Shown here in pieces: positions 1,976 to 47,196 of a stretch of 64,000 nucleotides of DNA. Numbering within the stretch: the first letter of the stretch is position 1; each line of letters begins with the position of its first letter. Source of the DNA: Dysgonomonas sp. PF1-14 (GTDB lineage: Bacteria; Bacteroidota; Bacteroidia; Bacteroidales; Dysgonomonadaceae); the NCBI RefSeq assembly GCF_029892965.1, contig NZ_JARXWN010000002.1:1-64000 (forward strand), given 5' to 3'. The notes under the pieces are model-generated. The model did not search any database, was not told the origin of the DNA, and saw only the letters and a list, made by a program, of their open reading frames with translations. The position numbers and the translations under genes are program-made.

Positions 1976-2959
1976 TTACTTTTTACGCATATCTTTGTAT
2001 TTAGTATAAACTACAGAATATTGTTCTTCATTCTGTGTCTCACTATTCGGAACCGGATCTATATAAGAAATTGATTTACTTTCAAACCTCATCAAATAAC
2101 TGCTGATTATCGGATAGCCGTTCTCATCCCACTTCAAAACATCGAGAGCTCCCGAAAGAGCAGAGTCTTTGCCCTGAGTCTGTTTCTTATTCTTTGTATC
2201 CAACTCAAACAATGAATTACTCCATACAAACGATGGGCTTTCATTACGGGAATGCTTAGCTGCATACAATTCTAAATTAGAATTCAATATCAAAGCACTT
2301 TCGTCCGGACGTGTCTGATAACTCAAATGCAGCGTGTCATAATCAGCCTTTATTGTTCCGTTTATCTGGATTCTGGTATTATTGAGAATCATGATAAACT
2401 TCAGATCTGCAAAAACCATATTCCCGTCTTTATATGTATATTCTACAATATCCTGATAGTTATCACTCGTTAAATCACCATCATAGTAACGTTTCTTCCT
2501 CTTTATAAAATCACCCTCCCATTCGAATTCATCTACCAAAGGCATTGTATAACCTTCGGGCTGCTCTGTACGTTTTACAATTCTTCCCGATGCATCACAT
2601 TCCAGCTTTACTTTTATATCCTGCTTTTGTGATATTCCGGTGTTTACGTCCTTATCTTCTTTTACACCTTCAATCTTAATCGTTTTACCCGAACGTATAT
2701 AATCACATGTTATCAGGGTTTTCTCTTTCCATCTGCCAAGACTGTCTTTTCCATAGTGCCTCGTAACAGACCGCTCCAAATACCCCTTATCGTCATAAAT
2801 ATATTCCTCATAAGGCCTTCTTATAGAATCATCGAATGCAATCTCCGTTGATTCTATCCTTATCACATCGTTATCAACCTTTGGCGGTTTATTACTACAT
2901 CCCTGGGATACAACAAGAAGCAGAATTGACAACAATAATATCAGTTTTGTCTGTTTCAT
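1976..2959 (-). CDS. Hypothetical lipoprotein
   Basis: I do not recognise the family. The reading frame can begin at 2983, but the ATG at 2959 gives MKQTKLILLLSILLLVVSQG followed by Cys, a classic lipoprotein signal, so I prefer 2959. The mature part (about 300 residues) is polar, with short repeated patterns resembling toothpick/RHS-type text such as YDDKGYLERS, DASGRIVKR and WDENGYP, each with an acidic residue, Gly and an aromatic. These are seen in many secreted Bacteroidota proteins of unknown role. It lies 34 bases upstream of dgt's start with no clear operon link. Likely anchored in the outer or inner membrane; function unknown. Confidence 0.7.
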   Translation of the reverse strand: MKQTKLILLLSILLLVVSQGCSNKPPKVDNDVIRIESTEIAFDDSIRRPYEEYIYDDKGYLERSVTRHYGKDSLGRWKEKTLITCDYIRSGKTIKIEGVKEDKDVNTGISQKQDIKVKLECDASGRIVKRTEQPEGYTMPLVDEFEWEGDFIKRKKRYYDGDLTSDNYQDIVEYTYKDGNMVFADLKFIMILNNTRIQINGTIKADYDTLHLSYQTRPDESALILNSNLELYAAKHSRNESPSFVWSNSLFELDTKNKKQTQGKDSALSGALDVLKWDENGYPIISSYLMRFESKSISYIDPVPNSETQNEEQYSVVYTKYKDMRKK

Positions 2960-3123
2960 ATATTCATTATATATTATTTCCAAACTTCAAATATACTTCT
3001 TTTTCGGCAAAACAGAGCAGAGCTGTGAAGAGTGAAGAGTTAGTATTTTATCTCTTCCTCTTGTCACGCCGACCATAGGGAAAAGTCTCTTTTGTAATCA
3101 TTCTCCTCTTCGGGGCTTTGTAG

Positions 3124-3160: not shown

Positions 3161-3179
3161 TTTTAACTAAAATGTAACG
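3161..3179 (+). repeat. 19-bp TTTTAAC repeat unit, copy 1
   Basis: TTTTAACTAAAATGTAACG, followed directly by a second AATGTAACG. Same unit as at 36646, 36834, 37016 (minus orientation) and 46616, 46859, 47070 (plus orientation). Confidence 0.8.
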
Positions 3180-3226
3180 AATGTAACGTTTTTGCATTGT
3201 TTTTGTTTTTTTGTTACCTTTCTTTT

Positions 3227-3410
3227 AGAGCCTGTTTAAATTTTATTCGTTTAGGTTTTCAGAACTATTTTTGGAATGATTTTTTCTTATCTGAAGCGCG
3301 AATAGCGGGCTATTCAAGCTGAAGAAAGGAGAAAATGGGACAAAAAGAGACTGAAAATGAACGAAAGAAGAACGATAACAAAATGTTTTGGTAAAATTTA
3401 AACAGGCTCT
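3227..3410. repeat. 184-bp foldback (MITE-like) element, copy 1
   Basis: The ends are inverted repeats, AGAGCCTGTTTAAATTTTA and its complement. The interior continues to pair imperfectly up to a central AATAGC-GG-GCTATT, so the whole element can fold into one long hairpin. Copy 2 at 16207-16390 has exactly the same length. No open reading frame is present. I see no clear target duplication. Confidence 0.8.
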
Positions 3411-3472
3411 TACTATTCTCTTTTGTAGCCTCTCTTTAGAGCAGGGCTGTTAAGTTCTGATTTCTATTCAAT

Positions 3473-3597
3473 TAATTGCCTCCACTTTTAAGTGGAGGAA
3501 TAAGGTTGATAATTGTGATATGGCTTTAGCCAAATCAGATTTGACTAAAGTCTTCTTAAAGAATACTTCTTACCCACGCCTTAAAAGACGTGGCAAC
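3473..3597 (+). repeat. Multi-hairpin intergenic repeat, copy 1
   Basis: Runs from AATTGCC to GGCAACT and holds four small palindromes: CCTCCACTT/AAGTGGAGG (3479-3498), TGGCTTTAGCCA (3521-3532), GACTAAAGTC (3543-3552) and CCACGCCTTAAAAGACGTGG (3574-3593). Related copies lie at 6411-6530, 36669-36791 and 46731-46855, with a fragment at 4368-4392. The organisation resembles REP/BIME-type repeats. Confidence 0.8.
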
Positions 3598-3652
3598 TCG
3601 CAGAACTTAACAACCCTGTCTTATGGGAAGGTTTGGAAGGGCTGCTTTTCAT

Positions 3653-4225
3653 TTATAATATTACCGTTGTGTACCTGTCGTCATCATCTGTCTCTCCATT
3701 GTCCTGCTGACGGATTTCGTGGGGCTGTGGGCTTGTCACCTTATCCAGAAATTTACTCACCATCTGTGTGGAGGCTTCCACATCGGCATCTTTCGGGAAT
3801 TTTAGGACAAAAGGCCTGCTGGTCTGTTCGGTTTCTTTTTGCTTTTCACGCTTCTTGTCCTGACGGTCGAGCACGAGCTTCATTACATGCGCTTTTGGTG
3901 CGCGCTTACGCTTAGTTACTACGCGGTTCTTTATTTTCTCGCCGCCCCAGCCATCGTCTTCGTAGGTGATGCGTTCGGTGACTTCTATATAACCTTCGAG
4001 CTGGTCGCGCAGGGAGTGGCGCACAAGGGTGGCGAGAGATTCGTCGCGGCGGTCTTCGGCTTCTTCTATGGCTCGGCGGAAGTCGCTGCGGGTTTTCTTC
4101 CATTCGTAGAAGGTTTTGGTCGTTAGTTTCAGGGTTCTGCAAATTTCGGTGATGGTGTAGTTGTCTTGTTCTATCAGTTTTACTATTTTCTCAACAAGTC
4201 TATCGCTGTATTTCATGGTTTTCAA
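3653..4225 (-). CDS. Orphan HTH protein, phage terminase small subunit-like
   Basis: The N-terminus (about residues 5-50) reads as a helix-turn-helix: SDRLVEKIVKLIEQ, then ITEICRTLKLTTKTFYEWKK, the kind of DNA-recognition fold found in small terminase subunits and the phBC6A51-type HTH family. A long charged, Arg/Lys/Glu-rich region follows, with an acidic C-terminus. Small terminase subunits recognise phage packaging sites, but no large terminase, portal or capsid gene is nearby, so this is an isolated gene or a relic. It is bracketed by multi-hairpin repeats at 3473-3597 and 4368-4392, and its DNA looks richer in GC than its neighbours, both hints of transfer. An alternative start is the internal Met at residue 4. 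Function is uncertain. Confidence 0.65.
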   Translation of the reverse strand: MKTMKYSDRLVEKIVKLIEQDNYTITEICRTLKLTTKTFYEWKKTRSDFRRAIEEAEDRRDESLATLVRHSLRDQLEGYIEVTERITYEDDGWGGEKIKNRVVTKRKRAPKAHVMKLVLDRQDKKREKQKETEQTSRPFVLKFPKDADVEASTQMVSKFLDKVTSPQPHEIRQQDNGETDDDDRYTTVIL

Positions 4226-4367
4226 AATTCTTTAGTGAATACTTTTTCGGTATTGATAAAGTTGTTTGAAAAGGATGAAAAGTTTAGGAAACCACAGAGT
4301 AGTAACACAGAGTGAACATGGAGTTTTGTAGGTGCGTAAAATATTACATCCGAAGTGAGAGGTCTAG

Positions 4368-6410: not shown

Positions 6411-6530
6411 TTGCCTACGATTTTAAGTGAAGAAGGGATAGTATGCCAATAAAATCTTTTACAAAAGTTCTTTTTGACTAAAGTCATTATTAGAGAAATC
6501 CTATTCCACGCCTTAAAAGGCGTGGCAATT
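6411..6530 (+). repeat. Multi-hairpin intergenic repeat, copy 2
   Basis: Runs from TTGCC to GGCAATT. The last hairpin is perfect, CCACGCCTTAAAAGGCGTGG (6506-6525), and GACTAAAGTC is retained, while the first two hairpins have decayed. It fills almost the entire gap between the convergent MFS and TPR genes, so it may act as their transcription terminator. Confidence 0.75.
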
Positions 6531-29414: not shown

Positions 29415-29452
29415 AGTGCTACAGCTTTTAAGAAATTATAAACTAATATCAG

Positions 29453-36350: not shown

Positions 36351-36645
36351 CAATCCCAATCCATCCACAATCTACAGCATACTCTTGCATTTACAGAATT
36401 TAAAAAATTGCATATTGACAGAATATAGAGTCTATTAATTGCAATTTTCTATATTTATACCTTATATTACCAAAAATAAAATTATAACTTTGCTTTTTAA
36501 GTTAGTAATGTAATTTATGGTTGAAACTATTATTATTTTTTATTGATATTTTTATCAATATAGCAGGGTTGCTAAAACTTATCCGCTCCTTTGCTAAAGG
36601 AGGTTATGGATAGAAAAGTAATAAAAAAGAAAAATAATGCGAAAC

Positions 36646-36664
36646 CGTTACTTTTTAGTTAAAA
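36646..36664 (-). repeat. 19-bp TTTTAAC repeat unit, copy 2
   Basis: Reverse complement of TTTTAACTAAAAAGTAACG. It bounds the block that holds the multi-hairpin repeat at 36669. Confidence 0.8.
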
Positions 36665-36668
36665 TCTT

Positions 36669-36791
36669 AATTGCCTCCTGCTTTAGCTGGAGGGTTGAAA
36701 GATAAAAAATGAAAGGCTTTAGCCGAAATACTTTGACTAAAGTCATAGTTTGACAAATTAGTATTCCATGCCTAAAAAAGGCATGGCAATT
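36669..36791 (+). repeat. Multi-hairpin intergenic repeat, copy 3
   Basis: From AATTGCC to GGCAATT. The final hairpin reads CCATGCC/GGCATGG where the others have CCACGCC/GGCGTGG, a compensatory base-pair change. GGCTTTAGCC and GACTAAAGTC are intact. The core is nearly identical to copy 4 in reverse. Confidence 0.82.
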
Positions 36792-36833
36792 AAAAAAATA
36801 ACGTTGCATTTGTCACTCACTGCTGACTGAATA

Positions 36834-36851
36834 GTTACTTTTTAGTTAAAA
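36834..36851 (-). repeat. 19-bp TTTTAAC repeat unit, copy 3
   Basis: Reverse complement of TTTTAACTAAAAAGTAAC. Separates the multi-hairpin block from the GTAGGGGCGAA block. Confidence 0.8.
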
Positions 36852-37015
36852 CAATCTCAGACGAAGGCGCTAAGACGCAAAGAGAGAGAATACTAGCCTG
36901 TAGGGGCGAACCTATGTATTCACCCGAAAGACGAAGAAAACGGATAGACCCAACGGCCTGCCCCTACAAGAGGAAAAGTAACAAGAGTTGAAAAACAGTG
37001 CTATTTCATTACATT
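36852..37015. repeat. GTAGGGGCGAA block, first locus
   Basis: Contains AAGGCGCTAAGACGCAAAGA, CTAGCCTGTAGGGGCGAACC and, facing it, CCTGCCCCTACAAGAGG. Its reverse complement matches 46879-47069 over most of its length (roughly five bases in six by eye). Confidence 0.75.
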
Positions 37016-37034
37016 CGTTACTTTTTAGTTAAAA
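37016..37034 (-). repeat. 19-bp TTTTAAC repeat unit, copy 4
   Basis: Reverse complement of TTTTAACTAAAAAGTAACG, preceded by a further CATTACATT. It ends 11 bases before the proB -7 element, so it supplies the -33 region of that promoter. Confidence 0.8.
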
Positions 37035-37044
37035 TTTTAATAGC

Positions 37045-37052
37045 TAAATTTG
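37045..37052 (+). promoter_or_regulatory. -7 promoter element for the proB operon
   Basis: TAAATTTG, 14 bases before the proB ATG; bases 19-24 upstream of it belong to the TTTTAAC repeat unit. Confidence 0.6.
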
Positions 37053-37065
37053 TTTTATATAATAA

Positions 37066-38142
37066 ATGAAAGATCGGATAATAGTAAAAATAGGAAGTCA
37101 GATACTTACCCGCAGAGACGGCACGCTGGATGTAACCCGCATGTCGGCACTGGTAGATCAGATTGCGGAACTACATAAGGGAAATATAGAAGTGATACTT
37201 GTCTCTTCGGGGGCTGTAGCATCGGGCAAAACGGAAATCAAGGCCAAAGCAAAGCTGGATACGGTTTCTTCGCGCCAACTTTATTCATCCGTAGGGCAGG
37301 TAAAGCTTATAAACCGCTATTCAGACCTGTTTCATCAACATGGAATTGTTTGCGGACAAATACTGGTGACAAAGGAGGACTTTGCCACGCGCCGCCACTA
37401 TCTCAATCAGAGGAACTGTATGGGCGTGATGCTCGACAACAAAGTAATTCCTATAGTAAACGAAAACGATGCTATTTCCGTAAATGAACTGATGTTTACG
37501 GACAATGACGAATTGTCGGGGTTGGTAGCTGCTATGATGGGCGGAAAAAAGCTGATCATACTGAGCAATATAGACGGTATATTCAGTGACGACCCTAAAA
37601 AGCCTGATGCAAAACTGTTCAGGACGATAGACATACATAAAGACAATATAGAAAACTCTATACAGTCATCGAAATCGGCTACAGGACGCGGAGGTATGAC
37701 AACGAAATACAATGTTGCCCGCAAAGCGGCCGAAGAGGGCATAGAAGTGATTATAGCCAACGGACGCAGGGAAAATATACTGATAGACCTCGTAAAAGGA
37801 AAAGAAGAGGCCTCAACCCGTTTCATACCCTCCACTAAAGGCACTACCAGTGTAAAAAAATGGATAGCACACTCCGAAGGTTTTACCAAAGGGGAGATAC
37901 ATGTAAACCAATGTGCGCGTGAAGTGCTATTGAGCGACAAAGCCGTAAGCCTGCTACCTGTAGGGGTTACCAGTATCACCGGTAATTTCGAGGCTGATGA
38001 TATTGTACGTATTATCGACGAAGCAGGGAAACAGATCGGTATAGGAAAAACGGCATACAGCAGTGAGAAAGCAAAAGAGATAATCGGAAAGAACAATAAG
38101 AAAGCAATTATTCATTACGACTATTTATATATTGAGAAATAA
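37066..38142 (+). CDS. proB: Glutamate 5-kinase
   Basis: Phosphorylates glutamate to glutamyl 5-phosphate, first step of proline synthesis. The amino-acid kinase domain (about 1-250) shows [43 protein letters not shown] and the later [22 protein letters not shown]-terminal PUA domain (about 275-358) is present, ending in [11 protein letters not shown]. proA starts 2 bases after the stop. The operon continues to argF'. Translation starts only 14 bases after the -7 element, so the leader is very short. Confidence 0.96.
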
Positions 38143-38144
38143 AT

Positions 38145-39398
38145 ATGGACGACTATCACCAGAGTACGTTCCGGCAGGTTAGAGAAGCAGGCAGAAGCCT
38201 GAACTTGCTGGAAAAAACAGAAATCGATGCAATACTGGAAGCTATTGCTAAAGAAACCGAGTCTAAGATGTATTACATCCTTGCCGAGAATCAGAAAGAC
38301 CTGCAACGGATGGATACAAGTAACCCAAAATACGACCGCCTGCTGCTCGACGAAGAGCGCATTATGGACATCGTAAAAGATATCCGCAAGGTGGCCACCC
38401 TACCCTCTCCTACAGGAAAAACACTGATACAGAAAACACTGGATAACGGATTGCAACTTTCTAAAGTCACTGTTCCGTTCGGAGTTATCGGTATTATTTA
38501 CGAAGCCCGCCCGAATGTGAGCTTCGATGTATTTTCATTATGCCTCAAATCGGGTAATGCCTGCATACTGAAAGGAGGTTCGGATGCCCGTTTTTCGAAC
38601 GAAGCCATTATAGACCTGATACGGAATGTACTGGACGAAAACGGCGTGAATCCGAATGTATGTACGCTATTGGCTAACGACCGCGCAGCAACTGAGGAAC
38701 TATTGAATGCACGCGACTATGTAGACTTGATCATTCCACGCGGAGGGCAGGAACTGATAAACTATGTACGCGAAAATTCCCGCATACCGGTCATAGAAAC
38801 AGGTGCAGGCGTATGCCATACATACTTCCATAAAGACGGAGAGCTCGATAAGGGACGAAGGATAATTACAAACGCTAAAACCCGAAAAGTGAGTGTATGT
38901 AACTCACTGGATTGCCTCGTTATAGACAAAGACAGACTGGATGACCTGCATTTTCTTTGCGAAGAACTGGAAAAGAAAGATGTAGTAATATATGCAGACA
39001 AACAGGCTTATGAAGCCCTGTTCCCATACTATTCATACGACTTGCTGAAGAAAGCAGACGAAACGAGTTTCGGCACCGAATTTCTGGACTATAAGATGTC
39101 GATCAAGACCGTAGGGAACATTGAAGAAGCCATCAGCCATATATCTCAATACAGTTCTAAACACAGCGAAGCCATAATCAGCGAAGACAGAGAAGCAATC
39201 TCTATTTTCGAAAAAATGGTAGATGCAGCCTGTGTTTATGCCAATGCATCGACAGCCTTCACCGACGGGGCACAGTTCGGTATGGGGGCAGAAATCGGAA
39301 TAAGTACCCAGAAGATGCACGCACGAGGCCCGATGGCTCTGGAAGAATTGTGCACTTATAAATGGATTATAGAAGGAAACGGGCAAACCAGATCATAA
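38145..39398 (+). CDS. proA: Glutamate-5-semialdehyde dehydrogenase
   Basis: Reduces glutamyl 5-phosphate to the semialdehyde with NADPH, second step of proline synthesis. The 417-residue aldehyde-dehydrogenase-fold protein has [35 protein letters not shown], the catalytic Cys252 in [13 protein letters not shown] and the C-terminal [20 protein letters not shown] followed by [15 protein letters not shown]. Complete and typical. The stop is followed by a degenerate ATTATAAGTTATGA tract before the next small gene. Confidence 0.96.
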
Positions 39399-39433
39399 TT
39401 ATAAATTATGAATTATAAGTTATGAGTTATAAA
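39394..39433. repeat. Degenerate AATTATAAGTTATG tract
   Basis: Overlapping imperfect copies of ATTATAAATTATGAATTATA between proA and the next gene, similar in style to 13960-13991. Confidence 0.5.
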
Positions 39434-39494
39434 TCTGAGAATAACCTGTAACTATTATCCCAGTCTTCATATATCCATTAAAACAAATTATCGT

Positions 39495-39680
39495 ATGAAA
39501 AAGAAGAAGAAGAAACCCACAGGGAAAATTACAATAGAGGATTTTATAAAAGCTGTAAAGAAAGCCGACAGAGAGAACGAGTTGTCCCAATCTGCCGGAT
39601 GGAGGAGGACTACCTCCATACATAAGAGTAAAAAAGTTTACGACCGTAAAAAAGAGAAAAGGAGTATTCCCGATGAGTAA
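39495..39680 (+). CDS. Small basic hypothetical protein
   Basis: A 61-residue protein with an extremely basic start (MKKKKKKPTGKITIEDFIKA) and further basic clusters (RRTT, KKVYDRKKEKR). It has no signal or membrane segment. The reading frame overlaps the acyltransferase start by 8 bases (translational coupling) and sits inside the proBA-argF' operon, which supports it as a real gene. The text IEDFIKAVKKADRENEL suggests one amphipathic helix; it may bind nucleic acid or the ribosome, but that is speculation. Confidence 0.65.
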   Translation: MKKKKKKPTGKITIEDFIKAVKKADRENELSQSAGWRRTTSIHKSKKVYDRKKEKRSIPDE

Positions 39681-40581
39681 CGAACGTATTATAAGACTCG
39701 ACTATTTCAGGATTATACTCAGTTTATTAGTCATTACATTGCATTCGCAACCGCTGTTTAGTGAAGATTCACTTACCGGATGGTTTATATCCAATGGAAT
39801 AGCCCGTATAGCCGTACCCTGTTTCTTTATTATCAGTGGCTACTTTATAGCCGGACGATTGGATAACAGGAGGGAGTTAGCCCAATACCTGTCCCGGTTA
39901 TTAATCGTATATATTGTATGGACTGCAATCTATCTGCCCACTTATATAGGCACAGTGGCACCACGCTCATTGATCACGTTTTCTATACTCGGCTATTACC
40001 ATTTATGGTTTCTTCCGGCACTCATACTAGGTGTACTGATGTTGAAAGCCGCACACTCTTTCATAAAGAATGACAACATCATACTATTAAGCACTCTCAT
40101 CCTATACATTGCAGGGTATATACTGGAATCGTACGGATTCCAGAACAGATTGTTTTGCAACGGAATCTTTTTTGGCTATCCGTTCGTTGCTATAGGTTAC
40201 TATATCAATAAAAACAGAGTTGCCGAAAATATAAAACCTGTATATATATATCTGCTGCTGATTGCCGGATCTGTAGCACTCTTTACCCAGTCGTATCTCG
40301 ATTATGGTATTGAAATGTACAGAAACATGTCTACGGCTCTTATTATACTGTGTCCTGCCCTGTTTATATACATTATAAAGGGGGCGAAGCTGGGAGATAG
40401 CAACGAATATATCGATAAACTTGCATCAGGGATTTATTATATCCACATAATGGTGATAACAATGATCATCCCCTTATCGGAAACGGACAACATCTATAAG
40501 TATCCTGTTATTGCCGGCATTTCGATACTATTAGCTATCTTTATTATCTTTTTGAACAAACGCATAAAAATATTTTTGTAA
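39673..40581 (+). CDS. Acyltransferase family 3 membrane protein
   Basis: Likely O-acetylates a surface sugar or other envelope component. The 302-residue protein has about ten hydrophobic segments and opens with RIIRLDYFRIILSLLVITLH, the acyltransferase-3 start that contains the conserved Asp/Arg and the active-site His region, followed by IARIAVPCFFIISGYFIAGR. Similar to fucose-4-O-acetylase and OatA N-terminal domains. It overlaps the small upstream gene by 8 bases and shares one base with argF', so all are co-translated. Its presence in a proline/arginine operon has no obvious metabolic reason. Confidence 0.85.
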   Translation: MSNERIIRLDYFRIILSLLVITLHSQPLFSEDSLTGWFISNGIARIAVPCFFIISGYFIAGRLDNRRELAQYLSRLLIVYIVWTAIYLPTYIGTVAPRSLITFSILGYYHLWFLPALILGVLMLKAAHSFIKNDNIILLSTLILYIAGYILESYGFQNRLFCNGIFFGYPFVAIGYYINKNRVAENIKPVYIYLLLIAGSVALFTQSYLDYGIEMYRNMSTALIILCPALFIYIIKGAKLGDSNEYIDKLASGIYYIHIMVITMIIPLSETDNIYKYPVIAGISILLAIFIIFLNKRIKIFL

Positions 40582-41534
40582 TGAGAACATATACTAATGT
40601 CAAAGATCTCGGCGACCTGAATGCTGCCGTAAAAGAAGCCCTTGAGGTCAAGAAAAACCGTTTTGCCTACAAGTCTCTGGGTGAGAATAAAACCCTGTTG
40701 ATGGTATTTTTCAATTCGAGCCTGCGCACACGTCTGAGCACACAAAAGGCGGGTATGAATCTCGGTATGAACACGATGGTACTGGATATAAATCAGGGAG
40801 CATGGAAGCTGGAAACCGAGCGCGGCGTTATTATGGACGGAGACAAATCGGAGCATATACTCGAAGCCATACCTGTGATGGGCAGTTACTGCGACATCAT
40901 CGGAGTACGGGCATTTGCTCAGTTCGAAAATAAGGAAGACGACTATCAGGAGAAGATACTGAATCAGTTCATTCAATATTCCGGAAAGCCGGTATTCAGT
41001 ATGGAAGCTGCAACAGGCCATCCGCTACAGGCATTTGCCGACCTGATAACAATAGAAGAATATAAAAAGACTGCACGCCCAAAAGTAGTACTTACATGGG
41101 CACCGCATCCAAAAGCTTTGCCACAGGCTGTACCGAACTCATTTGCTGACTTCATGAATGAGGCTGATGTAGACTTCGTTATCACACACCCTGAAGGCTA
41201 TAACCTCGATCCGAAGTTTGTACGCGGTGCGAAGGTAGAATACGATCAGGATAAAGCCCTTGCCGGCGCCGACTTTGTATATGCCAAGAACTGGGCTGCA
41301 TACGCAGATCCTAATTACGGCAAGATATTGAGCAAGGATATGTCGTGGACTGTGACTAGCAAGAAGATGGCGCTGACTAACAATGCTTTCTTTATGCACT
41401 GCTTGCCTGTACGCCGCAATATGATTGTAAGTGACGATGTTATCGAAAGCCCTCAGTCTATTGTAATACCTGAAGCAGCCAATCGCGAAATATCGGCTCA
41501 GACTGTTATAAAAAGGATGTTGGAAAGCCTGTAA
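40581..41534 (+). CDS. argF': N-succinylornithine carbamoyltransferase
   Basis: Carbamoylates N-succinyl-L-ornithine in the succinylated arginine route of Bacteroides. The 317-residue protein has the carbamoyl-phosphate motif FFNSSLRTRLSTQKAG, a GYNLDPKF region, ATGHPLQAFADLITIEEYKK and HCLPVRRNMIVSDDV near the C-terminus. The close text resemblance to the B. fragilis enzyme, and differences from ordinary ornithine carbamoyltransferase such as WKLETERGVIMDGDKSEHIL, support the succinyl-specific call. Last gene of the proB operon; the ATG shares its first base with the previous stop codon. Confidence 0.9.
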   Translation: MRTYTNVKDLGDLNAAVKEALEVKKNRFAYKSLGENKTLLMVFFNSSLRTRLSTQKAGMNLGMNTMVLDINQGAWKLETERGVIMDGDKSEHILEAIPVMGSYCDIIGVRAFAQFENKEDDYQEKILNQFIQYSGKPVFSMEAATGHPLQAFADLITIEEYKKTARPKVVLTWAPHPKALPQAVPNSFADFMNEADVDFVITHPEGYNLDPKFVRGAKVEYDQDKALAGADFVYAKNWAAYADPNYGKILSKDMSWTVTSKKMALTNNAFFMHCLPVRRNMIVSDDVIESPQSIVIPEAANREISAQTVIKRMLESL

Positions 41535-41581
41535 GATATAGTGAGGGGATACTTCTTGCAATGAATATTCCCCTTATCCCA

Positions 41582-43990
41582 TTAGAACGGATACCCCACA
41601 GCAATGTGCCATGCCGTATTCTTCTTTATCTTGTATGGCTCAGTGATAGGCCATCTTTTCGTATTCGGATCTTTGGACGGATCGTATGCCTTCCAACCGC
41701 AATCGAGACGGATCAACACATATTTGAAGTCGAGACGAAGCCCTAAGCCCCAAGCCAGAGCTATCTCTTTGTAGAACTCGTTGAACTTGAAGCTACCGCC
41801 TTCTTGTCCTTCATATTCTTTCATAGTCCATATATTGCCGGCATCGACAAAAGCACCCATTTCAATCACCCAAAACAGCTTACTGCGGAATTCGATACTG
41901 GCATCGAGCCTTATATCTCCTGAATGGTAATAGAAGTTATCCTTATCATTCCCCTCTCCGCTACCTCTGAAGTAGTATGATCCGGGTCCCAGCTCACGAA
42001 TAGCCCAGCCTCTGACACTATTCGCACCACCCGAGAAGAAACGCTTCTGGATAGGTATCTGCTGGTTGTTTCCATACGGATAGGCAATACCTGCTCCGGC
42101 ATGCCATGCTATAGAGTTCTTATCATCTACCTGATAAGTCTTGCTATAATCGACCGTTCCGCGTACATACTGGGCATAGTTAGTACCAAACACCTGCTTG
42201 GAACCTTCCTCATCAGGCTTGGTATTTGCAATAGCTGCCCCCAGGGCCAAAACGTTTCCGGCAGTTTCGACTGATGCTCTTAACGAATATATCGGTCTGT
42301 TGCGTCTGGTAGGACTGGCCAGGTTTGTCCGCGAGAATGTATAGCCCATACTCATAATAAAGTGGTCGGTAAAGCTATATCGGCGGGCAGGTATCGAGAG
42401 GTTATTGTAAAAATTCTGATTGAGACTGTTAGGAGGCAAATGTACATAACTGATGTCGATCAGATCGAAGATATGCCTGTTCAGAGACAGATTCCTGTCT
42501 TGCCATATATACTTCACTCCGGCAGATAAAACCGTTCGGGTAAAGAACTCAGGTCTCCGTTGGTAGGTATAACTTGTACTGAACTGGGTAGAAGCATGTA
42601 TGCGTCTTCTGAAATCCTTTGCCAGAAATGGGAACATAAAACGAGGGAATGTAAGTGAGGTTTCCCCTCCTATCTCAAAGTAGTTCTTGGAAAAGCTTGT
42701 AAAGCTTGGAGTAATTGCCTCATAAGCCGCTCTCAGCTTCACATTAAACAACTCTGCCCCTCTGAATGTATTACGATGCAGATAACCTAGTTCGCCTCCT
42801 ACTCCGAAATAGCCACCCGAGTTAGTACCTTCTACTCCGGCAGATACACCTTGTTTCTTATCGGGAACGCATGTTATCGTACAGCGCAGCTTTGTAGAAT
42901 CATTCTCCCAGAACTCTGTATAGCTGATATTCACATTCTTCAATATCTGCAACTGCGACAAAGCGCTATAGGTTACAGAGGTCATGTTCTCATTATAATA
43001 TGTTCCGGGTATTATATAACAGTTGTTGAGGAGGATATGGGGCTTTATATATTCCCCACGCGGTCCGTATATAATCTTATAGCCGTCTTTTGTATATACC
43101 GATGATTCCTTGTAGTTACTTATATCTCCATCTTCCAATGGGTTGTAATCTACATACAATTCAACCTCATCTACTAAATAACGGCGGTGAGGTGTTTCTA
43201 TCGTTTGACCTCCTTGTCCCCGCTGTGTAAAAGGCAATATGACCAGATCTAGATCAACCTGATTCTTACCTAATGTAGAATCTCCCTCAAACTCTATATA
43301 TTCGGTATTGAAAGCATAGTACCCTGTACGTCTGAAGATGGATGATATTCTTTTCCGCTCTTCCTCCAGCATATCCAGATCGAGTGTGGATCCGGTTTTC
43401 ACTAACGTATTCCACCCTAACAAAGTATCTATATTGAGGGGTATTCTCCTGAGGTTTTTATTGGAAGAACGCGATAGCCTCATAAAAAGCTCGGGGTTAG
43501 ATATAATACTGTCATTTACATCTATTGTATAGTTTCTTATCCGGTATGGTTCTCCTGCTTTTATATTGTAAGTAACTTTAGCTTTCTTATTTTCGAGCTG
43601 CACTTCCGGTGTGACTTTCGCGTTCTGGTAGCCCTTATTCTTCATCATGCGTTCAAGGGTGGTTATCGATTGTTGCAACATGGTGCTATCGTACAGTATA
43701 GGAGCGTCTCCTGCATTACGCAAAGTACGGTTTATCCATTTAGTGGTGTCTTCACCTGATAAGTTGTAAATAAAGAGAGGTAGCTTAAAAAGAGTAAATG
43801 TCTTAAAATTAGGCTTCTGTTTAATGTAAGTTTCCATTTCGTAAGAAGGGATAACATTCTTGTCGCTCTTTACTGTCGCACTTGAAAGCAAGTATTCGCC
43901 ATCGGGTACAAATTTAGTTGTACTACAGGATGAGATCAGCAATATCAAGCAGGATACAAAACAAAAAGACGCAAATAATCTAAACTTCAT
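41582..43990 (-). CDS. tamL: TamL-type Omp85 outer-membrane lipoprotein (BamA/TamA family)
   Basis: The signal LFASFCFVSCLILLISSC ends in a lipobox (SSCSTTKFVPDGEYLL), the mark of the Bacteroidota TamL lipoprotein. POTRA-like repeats follow (for example NKKAKVTYNIKAGEPYRIRN and a segment EEERKRISSIFRRTGYYAFN). The C-terminal half is a 16-strand-type barrel with the Omp85 motif VRGWAIRELGPGSYYFRGSG (substrate VRGY/F loop) and the terminal HIAVGYPF. It probably inserts or secretes outer-membrane proteins with TamB; no tamB is adjacent. It converges with argF' 47 bases away. Confidence 0.9.
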   Translation of the reverse strand: MKFRLFASFCFVSCLILLISSCSTTKFVPDGEYLLSSATVKSDKNVIPSYEMETYIKQKPNFKTFTLFKLPLFIYNLSGEDTTKWINRTLRNAGDAPILYDSTMLQQSITTLERMMKNKGYQNAKVTPEVQLENKKAKVTYNIKAGEPYRIRNYTIDVNDSIISNPELFMRLSRSSNKNLRRIPLNIDTLLGWNTLVKTGSTLDLDMLEEERKRISSIFRRTGYYAFNTEYIEFEGDSTLGKNQVDLDLVILPFTQRGQGGQTIETPHRRYLVDEVELYVDYNPLEDGDISNYKESSVYTKDGYKIIYGPRGEYIKPHILLNNCYIIPGTYYNENMTSVTYSALSQLQILKNVNISYTEFWENDSTKLRCTITCVPDKKQGVSAGVEGTNSGGYFGVGGELGYLHRNTFRGAELFNVKLRAAYEAITPSFTSFSKNYFEIGGETSLTFPRFMFPFLAKDFRRRIHASTQFSTSYTYQRRPEFFTRTVLSAGVKYIWQDRNLSLNRHIFDLIDISYVHLPPNSLNQNFYNNLSIPARRYSFTDHFIMSMGYTFSRTNLASPTRRNRPIYSLRASVETAGNVLALGAAIANTKPDEEGSKQVFGTNYAQYVRGTVDYSKTYQVDDKNSIAWHAGAGIAYPYGNNQQIPIQKRFFSGGANSVRGWAIRELGPGSYYFRGSGEGNDKDNFYYHSGDIRLDASIEFRSKLFWVIEMGAFVDAGNIWTMKEYEGQEGGSFKFNEFYKEIALAWGLGLRLDFKYVLIRLDCGWKAYDPSKDPNTKRWPITEPYKIKKNTAWHIAVGYPF

Positions 43991-44145
43991 TGAACCAACC
44001 TAAACGTATATTAACTATAAACTAATATGTGCAAAATATGCAACAACAATTAACAGATACTCCATTTTCATATCCTCTTTTACAATAATAAACCCTTCGG
44101 ATATGAAATGAACGACAAATTTAGGGTTTTAATTGTTTCTTTTTG

Positions 44146-44153
44146 TAGTTTTG
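44146..44153 (+). promoter_or_regulatory. -7 promoter element for the VOC-methyltransferase pair
   Basis: TAGTTTTG fits TAnnTTTG, 30 bases before the VOC ATG. Confidence 0.5.
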
Positions 44154-44182
44154 TTACAAAAAGAATCTTAAACCACTAGAAA

Positions 44183-44575
44183 ATGAGACTTCATCATACA
44201 GCCCTATGGGTAACCGATCTGGAAAAGGTTAAGGAGTATTATATAAAACACTTCGGTGCAACATCGAACGAAATATATGTAAACCCCATTACCGGATTCT
44301 CCAGTTACTTCCTTACTTTCTCTTCGGGAAGCCAGTTAGAGATCATGCACAGACACGATATAGCTGACAATCTGAATGATAATATCACCCAATATAAAGG
44401 CTACATACACCTCGCCTTTTTGGCAGATACCCCCGAAGAGGTAGACGCCAAACTGAAAGAGCTGCAAGATGCCGGATACCCTATCCTCAGAGGCCCACGT
44501 ACAACAGGCGACGGCTATTACGAGTTTGAAACGCTTGATCCCGAGGGCAACAGGCTCGAAGTTATATCTAAATAG
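44183..44575 (+). CDS. VOC-family protein (glyoxalase/bleomycin-resistance fold)
   Basis: A 130-residue single-domain vicinal-oxygen-chelate protein. The N-terminal MRLHHTALWVTDLEKVKEYY supplies the first metal-ligand His, YIHLAFLADTPEEVDAKLKE the second His region, and YYEFETLDPEGNRLEVIS the terminal Glu. This pattern is like lactoylglutathione lyase-related or unnamed VOC proteins; the reaction cannot be told from sequence. The SpoU methyltransferase gene follows after 6 bases, so they are co-transcribed. Confidence 0.88.
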   Translation: MRLHHTALWVTDLEKVKEYYIKHFGATSNEIYVNPITGFSSYFLTFSSGSQLEIMHRHDIADNLNDNITQYKGYIHLAFLADTPEEVDAKLKELQDAGYPILRGPRTTGDGYYEFETLDPEGNRLEVISK

Positions 44576-44581
44576 AACCGG

Positions 44582-45334
44582 ATGAGCCTGAGCAAAAACA
44601 AACTGAAATATATACGGTCGCTAAAGGACAAAAAGTTCCGTACCGAGTATGGCACTTTCGTAGCCGAAGGCAATAAGATGGTAACCGATCTGCTACCATA
44701 CCTCAAGTGCCAGTTACTCATTGCCACTGCTGACTTCTTGTCCGAAACGGATATATCCGATATAGACGAAGTTATAGAGGTAAGCCCGAGCCATCTGGGA
44801 CAGGCCAGTTTCCTTCAGAATCCTCAGCAGGTATTAGCCGTATTCTATCAGTCCAAGCCCGAAAACAGTGTCGATATAGATAACTTGTTATCGCTCGCTC
44901 TGGATGGCATACAAGATCCCGGTAATCTGGGTACTATCGTCCGTCTTGCCGACTGGTACGGCATCCGCCATATCTTCTGCTCGCACGACACTGCCGATAT
45001 ATACAATCCCAAGGTGGTACAGGCCACAATGGGAGCTTTGGCTCGTATTAGTGTTCATTATGTCGATCTGCCGGACTTCCTCTCTGGGAAGAAACATCTC
45101 CCGATATACGGCACATTGCTTGATGGCAAAAATATGTACGAACAAGAGATAACCCCCAACGGAATAATTGTAATGGGCAATGAGGGTAACGGTATACGCC
45201 CACAAGTGGAACGCCTGATAACCAGAAAGCTCTATATACCCAATTATCCTGTCGGGAATCCGACTTCCGAATCGCTGAACGTAGCCATAGCAACAGCCAT
45301 AGTATGTGCCGAATTCAGAAGGAGAAGCCTGTAA
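44582..45334 (+). CDS. SpoU/TrmH-family RNA 2'-O-methyltransferase
   Basis: Methylates the 2'-OH of a ribose in rRNA or tRNA using S-adenosylmethionine. An N-terminal substrate-binding domain (about 1-95) is followed by the trefoil-knot domain with motif 1 QDPGNLGTIVRLADWYGI, motif 2 GIIVMGNEGNGI and motif 3 IPNYPVGNPTSESLNVAIAT, which carry the conserved Asn, Glu and Ser/Asn. Length 250 is normal. The RNA target is unknown; some relatives modify 23S rRNA. It converges with the ATP-grasp-like gene 7 bases away. Confidence 0.92.
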   Translation: MSLSKNKLKYIRSLKDKKFRTEYGTFVAEGNKMVTDLLPYLKCQLLIATADFLSETDISDIDEVIEVSPSHLGQASFLQNPQQVLAVFYQSKPENSVDIDNLLSLALDGIQDPGNLGTIVRLADWYGIRHIFCSHDTADIYNPKVVQATMGALARISVHYVDLPDFLSGKKHLPIYGTLLDGKNMYEQEITPNGIIVMGNEGNGIRPQVERLITRKLYIPNYPVGNPTSESLNVAIATAIVCAEFRRRSL

Positions 45335-45341
45335 TAATTGC

Positions 45342-46526
45342 CTACCTGACCAGTATATACGCCCTGTAGCGGCTCTCCGTATTTACCGGACACAATGCAA
45401 GATAACCGGACATTAACCTCCCATTGGCAAACTGTGCAGGATATTGTTTCTGCATTTGCCTGTGCTTACCGAATATTTCTCCCTCTCGTGCACTGAAATC
45501 GAGATAGAAGCGACCTTCTACTCCTTGCATCAGATAATTCTCGTAAAGACGAAGTGACAAATATCCCATATTGTAGCGCATATTGATTTCGAGACAGGGA
45601 TGAAGCCTATAACTGTCTCCGTCTTTATAGATCATCATATCCACCCCGATGCAGCCATTGTACAATCCTGCATATTTATCTCGTAATATAGCTATAAGAC
45701 CTGCTTTTACATCATTCAGCAGCGATAGGTCTATCTGTTCAGACAGCTGTTTCTCTATACTGTCTTGTGTCCCCAGATAATTAGATTCATAACCTCCTTT
45801 AGCATTGGTATAAAACAGTGAGTATCCTGTAAACTCTAAGCCGCCTTGTCCATCGGAAAGAAATTCCATAGCAAAATCAGTTTGCTTATCCAGTACGGAT
45901 TCTACCGATACACTACCCTGCTTCTTCAATATTCCATGCAATATCTGCCGCTCGGTGCGGGTAAGTCCGGTAACAGGTAACCACAACAACCCTCTGCCCG
46001 ATGAAGAATAAGGGGCTTTTGCCAGTAACTGGCTCTCTGAATTATTTACCGCCACTTCTATTTCATCTAAATCGGTATAAAACTGAGGTATGATATCATG
46101 CTGAATAAGCGGCAACTGTTCCGTCAGGCTTATCAGACAATCGTGGGCTGCCTGTCTGCTATGCAGATAAGTATATTCGTCTCTCCACAAAGGAATTCTC
46201 AGATCAAGTTCTAATTCTTCATTCAATTCGGTAAAATAGTGTACCGCTTGCGGCGATATTCCCCAAAGTCCTATATATTCACTCCTATATTTATATAGAC
46301 TTTCTTTCGATACTGGTAAAGGGATAGTCGGCAAATTTGCTTTCAGAAAAGAAAAAAAAGCATCATTCTCTTGTTGGCTAACAAAAACGACATCGTCTGA
46401 TTTACCATACCAAGCCGGCAGATAAGCCAATTCGTGTTGCATAGCTACCACATTGGCCGGAGCAGTGTAATAAGGCGATGCGTTATGTACGGCGGTCTCA
46501 TGACCGGGATTAAAGTAGAGAATCAT
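45342..46526 (-). CDS. Conserved hypothetical protein, ATP-grasp-like
   Basis: I know this type only as a conserved Bacteroidota hypothetical. Features that recall the ATP-grasp fold are a Gly/Ser-rich nucleotide loop (AKAPYSSSGRGLLWLPV, about 165-181), an acidic/hydrophobic strand (DFAMEFLSDGQGGLEFTGYS), and a C-terminal metal-binding strand YRLHPCLEINMRYNMGYLSL with Glu and Asn in the E-x-N positions. The N-terminus MILYFNPGHETAVHNASPYY is unusual and strongly conserved-looking. No signal is present. If it is a ligase, the substrate is unknown. Monocistronic on the minus strand. Confidence 0.65.
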   Translation of the reverse strand: MILYFNPGHETAVHNASPYYTAPANVVAMQHELAYLPAWYGKSDDVVFVSQQENDAFFSFLKANLPTIPLPVSKESLYKYRSEYIGLWGISPQAVHYFTELNEELELDLRIPLWRDEYTYLHSRQAAHDCLISLTEQLPLIQHDIIPQFYTDLDEIEVAVNNSESQLLAKAPYSSSGRGLLWLPVTGLTRTERQILHGILKKQGSVSVESVLDKQTDFAMEFLSDGQGGLEFTGYSLFYTNAKGGYESNYLGTQDSIEKQLSEQIDLSLLNDVKAGLIAILRDKYAGLYNGCIGVDMMIYKDGDSYRLHPCLEINMRYNMGYLSLRLYENYLMQGVEGRFYLDFSAREGEIFGKHRQMQKQYPAQFANGRLMSGYLALCPVNTESRYRAYILVR

Positions 46527-46615
46527 TCATTTTTCTTTTAACGATGTGAAGGTAATACTTTTATCAATTAACAGTCAACAATGATCAAAAGATTGACATC
46601 TGAAAACCGAATAAT

Positions 46616-46633
46616 TTTTAACTAAAATGTAAC
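46616..46633 (+). repeat. 19-bp TTTTAAC repeat unit, copy 5
   Basis: TTTTAACTAAAATGTAAC, followed by an extension CAACGATC...GAGTGAAGCG shared with copy 6. Confidence 0.8.
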
Positions 46634-46730
46634 AACCAACGATCACAAGAGTGAAGCGTATGTAAAAGTAATGCTTCCGCGTTGTTTCTACTCTTACTTT
46701 TACCCTGTAGTACAGGATGTCTGGTTGTAT

Positions 46731-46855
46731 TAGTTGCCACGCCTTTTAAGGCGTGGGTAGGAGTCGTAAGGAAAAGGACTTTAGTCAAAGTATTCGGCTA
46801 AAGCCTTTCATTTATTATCCTGATTTTATCCTCCAGCTAAAGCAGGAGGTAACTA
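46731..46855 (-). repeat. Multi-hairpin intergenic repeat, copy 4
   Basis: Reverse orientation: TAGTTGCCACGCC...GGAGGTAACTA. The hairpin CCACGCCTTTTAAGGCGTGG is perfect, and the core with GACTTTAGTC and GGCTAAAGCC is nearly identical to copy 3 at 36669. Confidence 0.82.
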
Positions 46856-46858
46856 AAA

Positions 46859-46877
46859 TTTTAACTAAAAAGTAACG
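46859..46877 (+). repeat. 19-bp TTTTAAC repeat unit, copy 6
   Basis: TTTTAACTAAAAAGTAACG, followed by CAACGATC...GAGCGAAGCG as at copy 5. Confidence 0.8.
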
Positions 46878-47069
46878 AATCAACGATCGGCAGAGCGAAG
46901 CGGAGCCAATGTAATGGAATAGCCCTGTTTTCAATTCTTGTTACTTTTCCTCTTGTAGGGGCAGACCGGTGTGTCTGTCCGTTTATCCGTCTTTCGGGCG
47001 AACATATAGGTTCGCCCCTACAGGCTAGCATCTTCTCCCTTTGCGTCTTAGCGCCTTCGCGTGAGACAA
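46878..47069. repeat. GTAGGGGCGAA block, second locus
   Basis: Reads CTCTTGTAGGGGCAGACC, then TTCGCCCCTACAGGCTAGC, then TTTGCGTCTTAGCGCCTTCG. It matches the reverse complement of 36852-37015. Confidence 0.75.
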
Positions 47070-47088
47070 TTTTAACTAAAATGTAACG
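47070..47088 (+). repeat. 19-bp TTTTAAC repeat unit, copy 7
   Basis: TTTTAACTAAAATGTAACG followed by AATGTAACG, the same doubled form as copy 1 at 3161. Confidence 0.8.
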
Positions 47089-47196
47089 AATGTAACGATT
47101 TTCATCCTTTTTTCTTTTTCATTACTTTTCATTACTTATATCTGATTGATAACTCTTTATCTTTACCATATAGATAAAGATTACATAAAAAAATAA

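Follow-up and report, generated by a model that had tools for sequence, protein, structure and literature searches.

The 64,000-nucleotide stretch analysed here (the window; positions 1 to 64,000 of contig NZ_JARXWN010000002.1 of Dysgonomonas sp. PF1-14) contains, at the seven places listed in Table 1, a unit of 19 bases that forms the edge of small modular DNA elements, a family widespread in this Dysgonomonas-type bacterium. The unit looks like a candidate site for binding by a stray protein of phage DNA packaging, the gene for which lies inside some of the elements and appears to spread with them. Five of the seven units are exact 19-mers and those at 36833 and 46616 deviate in the last base; 0.05 occurrences are expected by chance, and none of 100 shuffled sequences reached seven. 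A previous sequence-only reading of the window had recognized all seven, six at their correct coordinates and one at 36834, which should read 36833. It had also described three units of one orientation at 36.6-37.0 kb (minus strand, array W2) and three at 46.6-47.1 kb (plus strand, array W3), with a multi-hairpin repeat (block A) and a GTAGGGGC palindrome (block B) at both loci in swapped order, and this description is borne out. Homology links the B cassettes of W2 and W3, with 93% identity in the unit interior and 104 matching nucleotides in the block; by reading, the A cassettes carry different units, and that of W3, at 46.6 kb, matches loci outside the window designated L053 (unit interior 100%) and L054 (269 bp at 93%). 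The two loci are therefore not one duplicated segment, in line with that earlier reading. What had been overlooked is the gene for the family's own protein, which lies inside the window at 3656-4216 on the minus strand within element W1. A search of the window with Rfam at gathering score gave no match.

Across the genome (4.58 Mb in 49 contigs), the 18-base core of the unit has 117 matches with up to two mismatches, as compared with 6 for a reversed-pattern control. Arrays were built from 100 listed of these 117 places, using 46 fetched stretches and the window, and the resulting 51 type I arrays contain 1 to 6 units each, spaced at about 88-451 bp, in the layout (unit-block)n-unit-tail, usually ending in a T-box, TATAGATAAA. 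Arrays were clustered per strand, but strand agreement was checked separately without that clustering: 49 of 50 neighbouring unit pairs less than 600 bp apart lie on one strand, the exception involving a 2-mismatch site in L057. By regular expression, the T-box or a close variant is found past the last unit and tail in 41 of the 51 arrays, and in the four gene-bearing type I copies it is located beyond the gene. Read in the direction of the adjoining gene, the element has the reverse complement of the T-box, TTTATCTATA, at its upstream end. Two places are sharply conserved, namely the left edge of the unit, (A)TTTTAACTAAAA, and the T-box; a further conserved position lies about 16 bp past the latter. 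The unit U' consists of two direct repeats, GTTACnTTC-GTTACwTTTT, followed by TAGTTAAAA. A type II unit, TTTTAACTAAAACCT[GT]AC, has 186 matches in the genome (control, 2), and 26 arrays sampled from 30 of these places have the same architecture, the left-hand gene being on the minus strand in 24 and the T-box being present in 22. An open pattern with four free bases, TTTTAACTAAAANNNNAC, occurs at 259 places (control, 0); among 100 listed of these, a hand tally gives 42 with [AT]GTAAC, 56 with nC[TC]nAC, and 2 with neither. By eye, some tails, for example those of L033, L075, and L076, hold short direct repeats of the GTTAACTGA type that resemble the TAACTGA repeats described from Beggiatoaceae and some Bacteroidetes (PMC4679880). 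At L048 (about 2466-3090), the start of the neighbouring gene has apparently been duplicated in tandem together with a unit.

The arrays have a fixed orientation relative to genes, as judged from gene calls made with a simple codon score devised for this analysis. When the 51 type I arrays are turned to have the unit on the left, 49 of them have a left-hand gene on the minus strand, so that the unit faces its start codon, at a distance of 1 to 342 bp. The gene pairs around the arrays are tandem in the direction just described in 35 cases (in 4 of which the right-hand gene is the gene for the family's own protein), tandem in the opposite sense in 1, divergent in 14, and convergent in 1; because 6 of the 31 window gaps of at least 60 bp are convergent, convergent gaps seem to be avoided. 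In other genomes (71 of 94 loci used, single records from unrelated taxa being omitted), 60 arrays could be evaluated, of which 52 have the left-hand gene on the minus strand and 8 disagree, another 16 being not callable, and tandem pairs in the two senses number 29 and 1. A promoter of the neighbouring gene was sought next to the unit; the motif TAnnTTTG is commoner on the gene side of the arrays, with 22 occurrences versus 6 on the other strand in 51 flanks, at no distance that appears fixed by eye.

The gene in W1, an open frame at 3653-4225(-) that precedes the T-box at 4251 in the element starting with the unit at 3161, encodes what is, by sequence and predicted fold, an orphan relative of phage terminase small subunits (TerS) of nearly full length. 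The protein scores above the Pfam cut-off for the helix-turn-helix (HTH) family HTH_Tnp_1 and, with 26.5 bits, just under the cut-off of 27 for Sf6_terminase; it matches several terminase small subunit families of PHROG, phrog_309 over residues 2-150 of its 187. A single-sequence fold was poor (predicted local distance difference test score, pLDDT, 55), and a model from an 11-row alignment (pLDDT 77) was used instead. Its top match in BFVD is a viral terminase small subunit (E 4e-8, template modelling score 0.57), and Sf6 gp1 and phBC6A51 rank first among its matches in the Protein Data Bank, although weakly (E 0.18). The similarity thus extends beyond the HTH in both sequence and predicted fold. 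Two Porphyromonas phage records are 40% identical to the protein over 80 residues, and both relatives tested on viral contigs (L328 and L331) lie directly before a Terminase_6N gene. No relatives were found on plasmids, and a search of a defence library gave no match.

The TerS family has 13 members in the genome, one of them with stops. Four TerS-I genes (W1, L172, L173, and L174; 95-97% identical to the L174 copy) lie inside type I elements between unit and T-box, and their product is no recognized transposase; these near-identical copies have been multiplied or homogenized in the genome. Five TerS-II genes (46-48%), at separate loci, lie in elements with the type II unit, each between the unit and T-box of its own family. 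In the remaining four (L180-L183), the two ends are not both clearly visible. None of the 13 copies has a large terminase (TerL) gene beside it, in searches with two TerL queries that did not cover other TerL families, and the only Terminase_6N or phage-TerL matches of the genome are at C3:67585 and C3:126901.

Within the genus, 20 of 25 genomes contain the TerS family, with up to 19 copies, as compared with none of 16 other genomes of the order. A relative of the phage large terminase is found in 5 of the 25, and any Terminase_6N match in 13. Matches to the unit, among those listed, occur in Dysgonomonas and allied assemblies, with single matches in unrelated taxa. Genome G003 (a single contig of 5.2 Mb) has 19 TerS-like matches but a single type I unit; most of the genes inspected in it are accompanied by motifs of the GTTACCTTTGTTAC type without the TAGTTAAAA end. 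For 93 TerS genes (80 fetched of the 107 matches in relatives and the 13 of this genome), residue x of the helix motif [IL][ST]Rx..Y.W was compared with whichever recognized motif comes first in the 600 bp that follow the stop codon. Where x is Lys, the motif is GTYAC in 45 genes, GTMAGG in none, and lacking in 7; where x is Asn, His, Glu, or Gln, the corresponding numbers are 3, 18, and 13; where the residue is unassigned, they are 4, 0, and 3. The association has a Fisher p of 1.9e-13, a value not corrected for relatedness. The T-box lies within 120 bp upstream of 75 of the 93 genes, its distance to the start codon being mostly 22 or 42-48 bp, a position that would also suit a promoter; the other strand of these 120 bp has it in 4 cases, and an equally long stretch behind the gene in 1.

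Comparison of the elements among themselves (41 type I and 22 type II, with up to 400 bp of flank) shows where their homology ends. Among 380 alignments of at least 90 bp, 185 begin within 8 bp of the unit start in both partners; when the unit positions were shifted by -60, -40, -25, 25, 40, 60, and 80 bp, the numbers were 8, 14, 11, 0, 0, 6, and 1. The 185 include 55 between first units, 37 between internal units, and 93 of first with internal units. Many of the alignments that start at the unit edge stop near the T-box, as in L032 and L076, where the first unit of L032 corresponds to an internal unit of L076 and the similarity (370 bp at 82%) ends 12-13 bp past the T-box. Copies at unrelated loci are homologous throughout the element while their flanks are unrelated; both element ends are present in gene-bearing and gene-less copies, and only 1 of 52 inter-unit cassettes contains an internal T-box. 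The unit had been proposed to act as the junction of modules, with a genome-wide scan as the check; this stands for the edges of homology, which lie at units, but it does not extend to unit and block travelling together in general.

Individual cassettes have been copied whole, as in L053 and W3 and in L043 and L044, where the unit interior is 100% identical and the block is matched; block B of W2 and W3, at 93%, is a further case. L084 and L046, which represent one orthologous locus, have both retained the frame T-box-U'-block-U'-gene but have different blocks between their two units; frames can therefore be old while blocks turn over. Among 44 blocks of at least 60 bp classified by signature, 17 are of type A, 10 hold type B, and 9 fit none. 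Blocks also occur outside arrays, at 12 places in about 308 kb of sequence chosen around arrays, and many blocks look like separate insertions. For block A there is a probable source. The only Y1_Tnp match of the genome is a RAYT-like gene (REP-associated tyrosine transposase, REP being repetitive extragenic palindrome) with a 147-codon open frame at C8:49611-49952 (L352). Several arrays have a block A that matches its upstream flank (best E 4e-13), and by reading the same palindrome is present downstream. The REP/RAYT trait that the repeat flanks the RAYT gene is found for block A only. Block A is thus probably a REP or REPIN of this gene and was probably inserted independently. The 3.3-kb locus of the Y1 gene contains no T-box and no unit end at up to one mismatch (one AATTAACTAAAA at two), which does not support this HUH transposase as the partner of the unit.

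The features of the window are collected in Table 1. Sequence similar to the 3227-3410 insert, which resembles a miniature inverted-repeat transposable element (MITE), is also seen by eye in L172, L173, and L178 and near L031. Inserts of the 30-bp CAACGTTCGACAGAGCGAAGCGGAGTCAA type, as at 46880-46909, occupy a similar position in the interior of many units of other arrays, and a palindrome of the block A type occurs outside any array at 6473-6530 of the window.

Table 1. Coordinates of unit-associated features in the window
Feature	Position	Strand	Remark
Element W1, whole	3161-4281		End near 4281; carries TerS-like gene
Unit U (type I), left edge of gene-bearing element W1	3161..3226	+	
MITE-like insert in unit-gene interval of W1	3227..3410		184 bp, 19-bp perfect inverted ends AGAGCCTGTTTAAATTTTA
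Block-A-type (REP-like) repeat between W1 unit and gene	3462..3606		85% to L039 block
Orphan terminase-small-subunit-like HTH gene	3656..4216	-	187 codons; stop codon 3653-3655
T-box TATTGATAAA of W1	4251..4260	+	Reverse complement TTTATCAATA, 5' of TerS gene
T-box TATTGATAAA of array W2	36551..36560	-	
W2 unit 3	36646..36664	-	Followed by tail
W2 block A	36665..36790	-	REP-like multi-hairpin
W2 unit 2	36833..36851	-	
W2 block B (GTAGGGGC...CCCCTAC) and TTTGCGTCTT stretch	36852..36967	-	
W2 unit 1	37016..37034	-	31 bp ahead of start codon of gene at 37066
W3 unit 1	46616..46634	+	89 bp ahead of start codon of gene 45342-46526(-)
W3 block A	46732..46858	+	
W3 unit 2	46859..46877	+	Interior with 30-bp insert 46880-46909
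W3 block B and TTTGCGTCTT stretch	46955..47069	+	
W3 unit 3	47070..47088	+	Followed by tail
T-box TATAGATAAA of W3	47169..47178	+	

These observations are best explained by a mobile element family in the genus from which the arrays derive as forms without the gene, and in which the TerS-like protein acts as specificity factor and a partner enzyme acts in trans, a reading to which we assign a probability of roughly 0.55. Read towards the neighbouring gene, such an element would begin with the T-box TTTATCTATA, probably also a promoter, and continue through the TerS gene or a non-coding tail to U'. The TerS-like protein would bind U', and an enzyme supplied by the host or a phage would perform strand transfer. 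The role of specificity factor is probable for this protein because of the pairing of helix and motif, the ends common to copies with and without the gene, and the units specific to each subfamily. Multi-unit arrays may arise through recombination between units, and REP-like palindromes, of which at least block A appears to come from the resident Y1 transposase, may insert between them; the two processes together would account for the same blocks lying in different orders at different loci.

Several results weigh against this interpretation. Beyond the HTH of HTH_Tnp_1, no transposase or nuclease domain over cut-off was found in the TerS-like protein. Flank duplications, as expected of a target-site duplication, are not enriched in 41 elements. 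The terminal inverted repeats are, by eye, imperfect at best, TTTTAACTAAAA sharing about 8 of 10 bases with the reverse complement of the T-box end. Some elements are old, since the same gap is occupied in different species (L105 and L185 versus L064; both units of L110 versus L067; L084 versus L046; L147 versus L035), in two cases in opposite orientation (L122/L033 and L160/L069). Other gaps speak for the mobile-element reading, being filled in L135 and empty in L037 of this genome, or filled in L055 of this genome and empty in L157; in addition, the window near 29416 is without the element found at L203, a TerS locus whose repeats are without the TTTTAACT part. These empty sites give presence or absence only, since divergence of the flanks prevents a junction from being placed to the base, and comparison between species, not close strains, could catch no recent move. 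In the covariation data, a recognized motif within 600 bp is lacking for 20 of the 86 TerS genes with a callable residue, and the Lys-type motif accompanies 3 of 34 non-Lys genes. A tree-aware test, on a tree built without the HTH, yields 6 independent contrasts on all branches and 4 on supported branches, of which 2.7 on average go the same way and never any the other way, with a median p of 0.25 (range 0.125-1), and lacks power. Finally, unit and block are not linked overall: median unit identity, calculated over aligned columns without counting gaps, is 0.805 for 145 same-block pairs versus 0.829 for 1160 different-block pairs, and the observed mean was attained in 1629 of 2000 permutations. 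The block cannot be predicted from the unit variant; most blocks have therefore arrived or shifted without regard to that variant, and unit-block linkage, sought as proof of cassette travel, was not found overall.

The orientation of the arrays would be explained directly if the TerS-like proteins were transcription factors and the U arrays operators upstream of genes, both spread and maintained by selection. In such a regulatory network the unit would be expected to face a start codon, as it does in both types of array (49 of 51 and 24 of 26), and the promoter distance between T-box and TerS gene and the occurrence of several sites in common in different species would also fit. The adjacent genes, however, seem to have unrelated housekeeping functions (judged by eye, no family search having been run), the distance to the start codon is highly variable, and paralogues with different units coexist, and we consider regulation an unlikely explanation of the family. 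Recombination of the RecA type between dispersed copies of an old AT-rich repeat, with the TerS gene as passenger, would produce homology edges at units and the reassortment of units with blocks, but leaves the T-box at the other end, the homology of whole elements between unrelated flanks, and the covariation of helix and unit unexplained; it is likewise unlikely.

Another alternative is that TerS and U' constitute a mobile pac-like module; when a phage infects, TerS would steer its large terminase to U arrays, so that host DNA is packaged, and the element would spread by transduction or protect by mis-packaging. The near full-length relationship to terminase small subunits, the Terminase_6N genes adjoining the two viral relatives tested, and the helix-motif covariation, which fits a TerS-site pair, are consistent with such a packaging parasite. 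We nevertheless regard it as unlikely, as the large terminase is patchy in comparison with TerS (5, or 13 for any Terminase_6N, versus 20 of 25 genomes, other large-terminase families not having been searched) and the fixed orientation to genes and the element ends are left unexplained. The reading of the arrays as derivatives of a mobile element family can also be taken further, to a type of mobile DNA whose entire content is TerS and its own recognition site and which is moved or copied by a borrowed catalytic partner, for which the nuclease of a phage large terminase is a possibility. The dispersed unit arrays would then be miniature forms of this DNA, and any packaging of host DNA from them a by-product; this extension is doubtful, albeit conceivable.

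A large intergenic repeat family thereby gains a candidate protein partner, one that belongs to phage packaging instead of being a transposase. Should the pairing prove causal, terminase small subunits would have been recruited as DNA-spreading factors, a use of which, to our knowledge, there is no previous example; no paper on chromosomal TerS-repeat elements was found in the literature searches made here. The old question of what protein is responsible for spreading an orphan family of intergenic repeats is made testable here, and the elements supply a natural set of helix-site pairs for the study of TerS recognition.

Several known systems share parts of this organization. The BOX elements of Streptococcus pneumoniae are likewise intergenic, with end modules and a variable number of internal modules, but BOX repeats a single internal module, whereas here the terminal unit is repeated with unlike blocks between, and the account of BOX consulted describes no TerS partner (PMC3049150). 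The BrickBuilt MITE of Porphyromonas gingivalis, also from the Bacteroidales and intergenic, has a leader, tandem units, and a tail and shows promoter activity; it differs in that its tandem bricks, of 23 bp, adjoin each other with no spacers and that its ends are inverted repeats (PMC4596501). Integron cassette arrays resemble the present ones in having cassettes of one orientation, a site behind each payload, and possibly a promoter at one end; in contrast, the cassettes here are non-coding and spread over dozens of loci, and none of 33 matches to the integron integrase model TIGR02249 is over cut-off, as is also the case in 14 control genomes. With phage TerS proteins such as Sf6 gp1 and phBC6A51, the TerS-like protein shares the sequence family and the predicted fold of HTH, long helix, beta hairpin, and helix, but its gene is multicopy on the chromosome, has TerL matches near none of its 13 copies, and is followed by its own unit. 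Another parallel in organization is that of REP or REPIN sequences with RAYT (TnpA_REP), in which a protein family is associated with many intergenic cognate sites, the gene is flanked by its sites, and protein and site co-evolve (PMC8266576, PMC3733652). RAYT is a Y1 HUH transposase that acts on hairpins, whereas the protein here is a TerS relative and the site a direct repeat; the logic of the elements is likely RAYT/REP-like, built on a TerS protein.

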